From a virus, in the IMG/VR virus record IMGVR_UViG_3300035701_000147, positions 1 to 35,022 of that record: 35,022 nucleotides of DNA; one strand, written 5' to 3'. A program made the translations under genes and the position numbers. Below, one piece after another: positions 6,017-35,022 of this stretch. The first letter of the stretch is position 1. Every line of letters begins with the position of its first letter. Below the pieces are notes generated by a model that saw only the letters and a program-made list of their open reading frames with translations, ran no database searches and was not told the DNA's origin.

Positions 6017-6154
6017 ATGTGCTTGAAATTATTAGCAAGATTTAGAAAAAAGAAGAATGTTGATATTATAAAAGTAAAGAAATTTGAATGGCCTCATTTC
6101 AAAGATTGTGCAAATTATAAGAGAAGGGAAAAAAGGAGGAAAGGATGGAGTTAG
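6017..6154 (+). CDS. Small basic hypothetical protein (45 aa)
   Basis: Starts at ATG 6017 with GGAAG upstream and runs 45 codons to a TAG inside the next gene. Very basic (about one third K/R), with a short hydrophobic start (MCLKLLARF) and two cysteines. The C-terminal codons double as the ribosome site of the next gene. Supported mainly by gap-free packing; moderate confidence that it is expressed. Confidence 0.45.
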   Translation: MCLKLLARFRKKKNVDIIKVKKFEWPHFKDCANYKRREKRRKGWS

Positions 6155-6414
6155 GAAAAATTGTATGGACAAGAGGTATTAATGAAAGAATTGCGAAAGA
6201 TTTAAAGTTCGCCGAATTTGTGGAAGCAAGTTTTAAGAGATATTGCAAAGAAGATTTTGGAGAATTGTGTGATGAGGATAAAAAGGAAAATGAACTGGCT
6301 TTGAAAGAGGGGAATAGAATCTTGGCAAGTTATAAATATAACGAGGAAAAAATATGGATAATAACCGAAGCAGATAGGGCATCAACGACAATTTTGTTCT
6401 CTTCTGAGTATTGA
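6145..6414 (+). CDS. Conserved plasmid/phage protein of unknown function (89 aa)
   Basis: The run FGELCDEDKKENELAL and the end IWIITEADRASTTILFSSEY match, from memory, a small family common on plasmids and in phages and sometimes wrongly labelled a type I restriction subunit. Relatives I recall end in LFP-x-EY. Here the end reads LFSSEY, whereas the downstream homing endonuclease ends LFPDEY, which bears on how that element inserted. The start has AAAGGAGG. Confidence 0.75.
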   Translation: MELGKIVWTRGINERIAKDLKFAEFVEASFKRYCKEDFGELCDEDKKENELALKEGNRILASYKYNEEKIWIITEADRASTTILFSSEY

Positions 6415-6426
6415 CTTGGAGTGAAT

Positions 6427-7059
6427 ATGAGAATAACAATTTATGAAATACAAAATAAAATAAATAGTAAGATATATATAGGACAAACGAGAATGAATCT
6501 TAGACAAAGAGTCCAAGCTCATATAGATAATGCTAAAAGAAAAAATATAACTATTATAGGTCTTGCATTGTTAAAATATGGAAGAGAGAATTTCAAAATA
6601 ATACCATTGGAATATTATGATAATCAAGAAGACGCCGATAAAAAAGAAAGAGAATTAATCAGGGCTAATAATTCATTTTCGCCGAATGGTTATAATATAA
6701 GAGAAGGAGGAAGTAGGGGGGCGATAGCGGAAGAGACTAAAGAAAAATTAAGGAAATATATTCGAACCTCGGATACGAGAAAACGAATGAGTCAATCAGC
6801 GAAAGGGAAAATATCTACAATAAAACAATTGGAAGCATTAACTAAAGGAAGGATTATTAGAAATAAATTACATTATAGGGGAGAAAACAATGCTAATGCT
6901 AAATTAACAAATAAAGAAATTTTAGAAATAAAATGCTTATATCAAACTAATGAATATTCTGAAGAGGAATTAGGGAGAAAATTTGGAGTTAAGCAGGTTA
7001 CTATAAGTGCAATTATTACTGGTAAAAATTGGAAATTTTTATTTCCAGATGAGTATTGA
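6427..7059 (+). CDS. GIY-YIG homing endonuclease (210 aa)
   Basis: ATG 6427 is preferred to GTG 6421 because TTGGAG lies at a good distance. The GIY-YIG catalytic domain spans about residues 1-95: ITIYEI (strand 1), KIYIGQT, a conserved arginine (LRQRVQAH), the glutamate-bearing helix (KKERELI) and PNGYNIREGG. A NUMOD3-like basic patch (TRKRMSQSAKGK) and a C-terminal helix-turn-helix (LGRKFGVKQVTISAIITGK) supply DNA recognition. Such freestanding enzymes cut phage lacking them and spread by recombination. It is out of place among operon genes and flanked by a short repeat. Confidence 0.92.
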   Translation: MRITIYEIQNKINSKIYIGQTRMNLRQRVQAHIDNAKRKNITIIGLALLKYGRENFKIIPLEYYDNQEDADKKERELIRANNSFSPNGYNIREGGSRGAIAEETKEKLRKYIRTSDTRKRMSQSAKGKISTIKQLEALTKGRIIRNKLHYRGENNANAKLTNKEILEIKCLYQTNEYSEEELGRKFGVKQVTISAIITGKNWKFLFPDEY

Positions 7060-7228
7060 AATGTATAAAGAAGAAGAATTATTAAGGCTTTGGAGGAAGT
7101 GGACAGAAAAGAAACAACGACTTGAAAGTTATAAATTTCTAAATCCGACAATGGAGGAAAATCGACTGGAAAGAATAAAAACTTGTGTGAAAAGACTTGA
7201 TGAAATAAACAAGGAATTAAGGAGGTAA
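7049..7228 (+). CDS. Small coiled-coil protein (59 aa)
   Basis: ATG 7049 lies inside the last codons of the homing endonuclease and has no ribosome site of its own; an ATG at 7061 has none either, so it probably depends on translational coupling. The product is almost wholly charged helix (LLRLWRKWTEKKQRLES). Before the endonuclease arrived it was presumably coupled to the gene ending at 6414. Confidence 0.55.
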   Translation: MSIEMYKEEELLRLWRKWTEKKQRLESYKFLNPTMEENRLERIKTCVKRLDEINKELRR

Positions 7229-7230
7229 AA

Positions 7231-34726: not shown

Positions 34727-34918
34727 ATGAAAAAACAGTATTGTATTTTTGAAGGCAACAAGATTATAAAGATGTCAGAAAGCAAACAGGAATTAATTGA
34801 TTTCAGAAATTCCTTTCCTGAAGAAGTGAAAAGAACTCTATTACTTGCAGAAAGAATTGTTGGTGGAGAGGCAGAATGGCAAAAAGGATTTTGGCAATTT
34901 GACAAGGAGGAAAAGTGA
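34727..34918 (+). CDS. Hypothetical protein (63 aa)
   Basis: Starts just after the previous stop with GTGGAGG upstream. Alpha/beta start (KQYCIFEGNKIIKMSES), then a helix and WQKGFWQFDKEEK. It overlaps the copy of the first gene (GTGA at 34915-34918), which proves the junction between contig end and start is a normal operon join. Confidence 0.55.
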   Translation: MKKQYCIFEGNKIIKMSESKQELIDFRNSFPEEVKRTLLLAERIVGGEAEWQKGFWQFDKEEK

Positions 34919-35022
34919 ATAACGATAAACTCAGAGAAATATTATTAGAAGAGTTAGAAGCTATAAAGAGACTTTTAATTCTGTTTTTAGTATTAGAAGA
35001 AAATCAAAGAGGGATTAGTAAG
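34896..35022. repeat. Right copy of the 127-bp terminal direct repeat
   Basis: Identical to bases 1-127 without mismatch. Removing one copy gives a circle of 34,895 bp in which the gene order reads straight through the join. Confidence 0.95.
34915..35022 (+). CDS. Partial second copy of the first gene
   Basis: The first 36 codons of the 62-aa gene at 20-208, cut by the contig end. It is the same gene seen twice because of the terminal repeat, not a paralogue. Confidence 0.9.
   Translation, partial: MNNDKLREILLEELEAIKRLLILFLVLEENQRGISK

Follow-up and report, generated by a model that had tools for sequence, protein, structure and literature searches.

Probable insertion of a GIY-YIG homing endonuclease gene at the 3' end of a small phage gene, whose ancestral last codons very probably became the tail of the enzyme

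In the viral DNA analysed here (the window, 35,022 bp, IMG/VR record IMGVR_UViG_3300035701_000147), a GIY-YIG endonuclease gene and the small gene upstream of it (gene A) end alike, and the question is how the same gene end came to be present twice. The sequence TGAGTATTGA is present at 6405-6414 and at 7050-7059, each time closing in the stop codon of its ORF. Over the last 24 bases, 17 are identical, including 10 in a row, and related residues close the two proteins, LFSSEY in gene A and LFPDEY in the endonuclease. These likenesses had been noticed in an original prediction made from the window alone, and all of them were confirmed. Its interpretation, an insertion at the old junction of gene A with the downstream gene B, is largely supported and right in substance. 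A GIY-YIG gene was very probably inserted at the A/B junction in a phage ancestor, with the end of A now being the endonuclease tail and A itself having a look-alike end. For the junction, this verdict depends on a single empty relative; for the ancestral ending, it depends on 157 members of the family. The features are listed in Table 1.

Table 1. Features of the A/endonuclease/B locus in the window
Feature	Position	Strand	Basis
Gene A (upstream neighbour), 89 aa	6145..6414	+	ORF, relatives and C-terminal conservation; here ends ADRASTTILFSSEY
Left copy of the A 3' end (substitute or duplicated; LFSSEY-stop)	6391..6414	+	17 of 24 bases shared with the right copy, 16 of 24 with L002
GGAG, probable ribosome-binding site of the endonuclease	6418..6421	+	5 nt ahead of ATG 6427; inference from sequence
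Free-standing GIY-YIG endonuclease, 210 aa from ATG 6427	6427..7059	+	Pfam, PHROG, TIGR01453, tails of relatives
Right copy, probably the ancestral A 3' end (LFPDEY-stop), last codons of the endonuclease	7036..7059	+	18/24 identical to the gene A end in L002
Gene B (downstream neighbour), 55 aa	7061..7228	+	69% aa identity to L002 5272-5439

The first 25 bases of the window are found again at 34896 and its last 25 at 103-127, which fits a terminal repeat of 127 bp (1-127 and 34896-35022); such a repeat makes it probable that the contig represents a whole genome, circular or circularly permuted. The alignment with the relative L002 spans this terminal joint.

The uninterrupted junction was identified in L002, an IMG/VR contig of 23,291 bp with gene A 84% and gene B 69% identical in aa sequence and with about 75-78% DNA identity to the window. 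A comparison with a relative lacking the endonuclease had been proposed in the original prediction, and it supports an insertion, as gene A is followed there directly by gene B and ends LFPEDY-stop, not LFSSEY. The junction reads ATT TTA TTC CCC GAG GAT TAT TAA g ATG TAT AAG. The two genes had been expected to overlap; the junction as the site of insertion holds, and the overlap does not, A and B abutting with a 1-nt spacer. Gapless alignments were obtained between window 6041-6412 and L002 4897-5268, and between window 7037-7230 and L002 5248-5441. In L002 the two flanks overlap by 21 bp, and relative to it the window therefore carries a net insert of 645 bp between two imperfect A 3' ends. 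The right copy keeps the consensus residues, the stop, the 1-nt spacer and the start of gene B as they are in L002. That the ancestral 3' end was fused to the endonuclease is borne out by its last codons and stop, which align gaplessly with the A end of L002, lead into B and encode the consensus LFPDEY. The L002 record gave no match to the endonuclease, and no other relative with gene B was found beyond L002. Since there is only this one, at about 75-78% DNA identity, the inferred polarity of the change rests largely on the gene A family.

The same comparison bears on the gene starts. The most likely start of the endonuclease is ATG 6427, preceded by GGAG, rather than GTG 6421. For gene B the most likely start is ATG 7061, one base past the endonuclease stop, because L002 has a matching ATG there (MYK...) and no counterpart of the ATG at 7049. 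An ATG of B inside the last codons of the endonuclease, as first proposed, is thus not retained, while the absence of a clear ribosome site ahead of B in the window is. L002 has GAGG 9 nt ahead of the B ATG, within the last codons of A; the window equivalent is GATGAG, and gene B may for this reason have become more dependent on its coupling to the endonuclease.

Gene A is a member of an uncharacterised family of small proteins (about 85-93 aa) present in phages, bacteria, and archaeal MAGs (L002-L081 and L095-L174). Relatives were found in 118 viral and 526 genome stretches, with 80 viral and 80 genome stretches among the matches listed. No convincing match to a Pfam or NCBIfam model was obtained in the members scanned. 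The C-terminus is nearly fixed as WIITEADRSxTTxLxPxEY. As the peptide WIITEADR was used in gathering part of the set, its conservation is a product of collection; the last nine residues lay outside every search pattern. Y is terminal in 157 of the 159 members read, and within these T-T-x-L-x-P-x-[ED]-Y is nearly fixed, with L in 152. P stands at position -4 in 155 of the 157 members with an intact C-terminus; gene A of the window, ending LFSSEY, is one of the two exceptions and alone among the members read in having S there. Judged by this alignment, its loss of P is nearly unique, and its look-alike end keeps the conserved C-terminal Glu-Tyr of the family. LFPDEY, the ending of the endonuclease, is a canonical gene A ending found in 20 of the 159 members and fits the family consensus at all six positions, which argues for the identity of the tail.

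In a GIY-YIG profile search of the other gene A loci, one match only was obtained, and it does not adjoin gene A; because of this, the presence of the endonuclease at the A/B site is taken as the derived state. The match is a short GIY-YIG piece on the minus strand of L042 (2802-2972), about 2 kb upstream of the gene A relative and on the opposite strand, possibly a decayed endonuclease.

The endonuclease has an N-terminal GIY-YIG domain (PF01541, 8e-13, above the cut-off; TIGR01453, the NCBIfam group I intron endonuclease subfamily, 1e-21) and matches the PHROG 314 homing endonuclease with 3e-29. The catalytic-domain columns Y6, Y17, G19, R28, E74, and N90 are invariant in an alignment of seven sequences. 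The C-terminal helix-turn-helix region ends at about GKNWKFL and is followed by FPDEY; similar C-terminal regions are present in phage GIY-YIG and HNH endonucleases, and the Pfam HTH_3 match of the window endonuclease is below the cut-off. A single-sequence AlphaFold model was set aside, with a mean pLDDT of 38. The sequence match to PDB 1mk0, of the group I intron endonuclease I-TevI, is weak (E 0.087). The arrangement resembles that of I-TevI in the GIY-YIG catalytic domain and C-terminal DNA-binding region and differs from it in that no group I intron surrounds the gene: no Rfam family was found at gathering score in the window, and the ORF almost fills the 645-bp net insert. From these features the insert is judged to encode a free-standing GIY-YIG homing endonuclease outside any intron, with homing as its predicted activity.

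In most relatives of the endonuclease, the stop comes at W-x-[HN]-[IV] or shortly past it (SWVNI*, SWKHI*, IWSHVI*, TWSHITNINLP*), and their tails past the conserved region differ in length and sequence. A P-x-E-Y ending is absent from all the relatives compared. Two of the related loci have other arrangements. In Bacillus phage FADO (L084, 1-1875), a related GIY-YIG gene is separated by 5 bp from the RNA ligase gene ahead of it and shares 8 bp with the gene that follows. In Vibrio phage 1.244.A (L089, 1-1578), a long ORF with the annotation terminase large subunit contains the GIY-YIG match, and another terminase-like ORF follows it; the two may have been fused in frame, or the terminase gene may have received an insertion.

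The arrangement could have arisen as follows. The conserved 3' end of A would be the cutting site of the enzyme or of its ancestor, and the endonuclease gene, perhaps together with the A end of the donor, would be copied in during repair, by homology on the A side. On the other side, the endonuclease 3' end, TTTTTATTT, would be joined to the tail of A, ATTTTATTC, through the short similarity of the two. The right breakpoint would then lie inside or next to the last codons of A, so that the endonuclease ORF would end in frame with LFPDEY-stop, followed by B as before, and the left side of the insert would supply LFSSEY-stop to A. Because TTTTTATTT resembles ATTTTATTC, the breakpoint could be anywhere in the L-F codons, and only P-D-E-Y-stop is firmly target-derived. 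In the search of viral contigs for a donor with the exact left end there were three matches, none in gene A or beside an endonuclease. The substitute end that the original prediction gave to A was confirmed as a look-alike end, LFSSEY, but not necessarily as one carried by the element, for it may be a duplicated copy of the target. One could tentatively imagine that the endonuclease spreads through an exchange of the last codons of its target, carrying a replacement A 3' end and taking the end of the target as its own stop, although we hold this to be rather doubtful; if true, the target would stay functional after each such insertion, and the enzyme would gain a fresh stop. No second copy of the window endonuclease at an A/B site is known, which is a point against the insertion reading, and no convincing second pair of endonuclease and neighbour with common tails was found among about 89 GIY-YIG loci.

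Several other explanations were weighed. If LFPDEY were native to the endonuclease, its resemblance to gene A would be a coincidence, and the variable tails of the relatives would allow this. The DNA likeness would allow it too: when gene ends of the window and L002 were aligned at the stop, 22 of 3915 pairs (0.6%) reached 17/24. These 22 pairs share chiefly the common purine-rich ribosome-site sequence; the endonuclease tail and gene A of L002 are also among them, with 18/24. Because pairs of this level in an AT-rich genome mostly reflect ribosome-site purines, the DNA match alone is weak to modest evidence. At the protein level, by contrast, the match of the two ends is far from chance. An ending P-x-[ED]-[YF] was found in 50 of 1123 ORFs of the fetched loci, of which 49 have the gene A motif and the only other is the window endonuclease (L001). 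The pair of A and endonuclease has the best C-terminal score (19) over 147 pairs of a GIY-YIG ORF and its upstream ORF, a score that mismatched pairs reach in 0.07%. The tail agrees with the A consensus at six of six positions and is absent from the endonuclease relatives, and its stop is 1 nt from gene B, the same distance as in L002. A degenerate DNA pattern of the fused tail gave five matches in viral contigs, all in short, apparently unrelated frames. Coincidence is thus highly improbable. The polarity could also be the reverse, the endonuclease being ancestral at the site and lost in the L002 lineage by recombination between the repeats. Such repeats would permit a clean loss, and the pair of window and L002 taken alone is compatible with it. 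Nearly all other A members nevertheless end P-x-[ED]-Y, the sole GIY-YIG piece in their loci is the distant one in L042, and a loss in L002 would leave the first origin of the structure unchanged. We consider this reading improbable.

A variant of the preferred insertion does without A sequence borne by the element: the last ~24 bp of A would have been doubled by staggered repair or template slippage and would have diverged later. This would give the same layout without a donor, and GAG-TAT-TGA is common to both copies, while L002 has GAT-TAT-TAA. The repeated stretch is about 24 bp only. Over these 24 bp, however, the copies differ from each other at 7 positions, near the distance of each from L002 (left 8, right 6), and a duplication would therefore need to date from about the time of the split from L002. 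The left copy agrees with L002 at 16/24 and the right one at 18/24, a difference that speaks only slightly for a substitute end of foreign origin. To our knowledge, phage GIY-YIG enzymes are not known for long duplications. The cuts described for them in a 2010 review leave 2-nt 3' extensions (PMC2988022). We regard this variant as possible, although on the unlikely side, and in the preferred insertion the new end of A may be either a substitute carried by the element or duplicated target.

In T4-like phages, free-standing endonucleases are located between genes, overlap the upstream ORF, or split genes, according to the passages of that review found by term search (PMC2988022). The window enzyme is similar to the Seg and Mob enzymes described there in being intergenic between conserved genes, not in an intron, and absent from relatives. 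It differs from those descriptions in having the native last codons of its neighbour, with the neighbour having a substitute end (PMC2988022). A closer likeness, and a precedent for an end carried by the element, is found in mitochondria of Glomus and Allomyces, where endonuclease ORFs bring a foreign C-terminus and the native one stays behind (Allomyces atp6; Glomus atp6, atp9, cox2, and nad3; PMC3630166); a competing reading of this replacement has been published (PMC4019555). In the atp9 case, the enzyme is of the GIY-YIG family and the native end starts directly behind the ORF (PMC3630166). As with these mobile ORFs, the window endonuclease is at the 3' end of a gene, A has an in-frame substitute end (A stop at 6414, endonuclease start at 6427), and the native A end persists downstream (7036-7059) and runs into B. 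The swapped mitochondrial pieces are about 50-240 bp, unlike the about 24 bp here, and their substitute end has been argued to be foreign, whereas that of the window may be element-borne or duplicated. Also unlike the mitochondrial ORFs, for which this is not reported, the native end in the phage supplies, in frame, the last codons of its endonuclease. A phage case of a 3'-end swap with a borrowed endonuclease tail was not found in the open-licence literature. The enzyme is read as a free-standing phage homing endonuclease whose tail is borrowed in frame, together with a 3'-end swap of the mitochondrial type. As a case of endonuclease insertion at the very 3' end of a gene in a phage, with both frames intact, the locus is well resolved, and a relative has the empty site. 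C-terminal tails of endonucleases can be borrowed from a neighbour, a point of importance for annotation and for the search for target sites, and the locus links the free-standing endonucleases of phages to the replacement-C-terminus mobile ORFs of fungal mitochondria.
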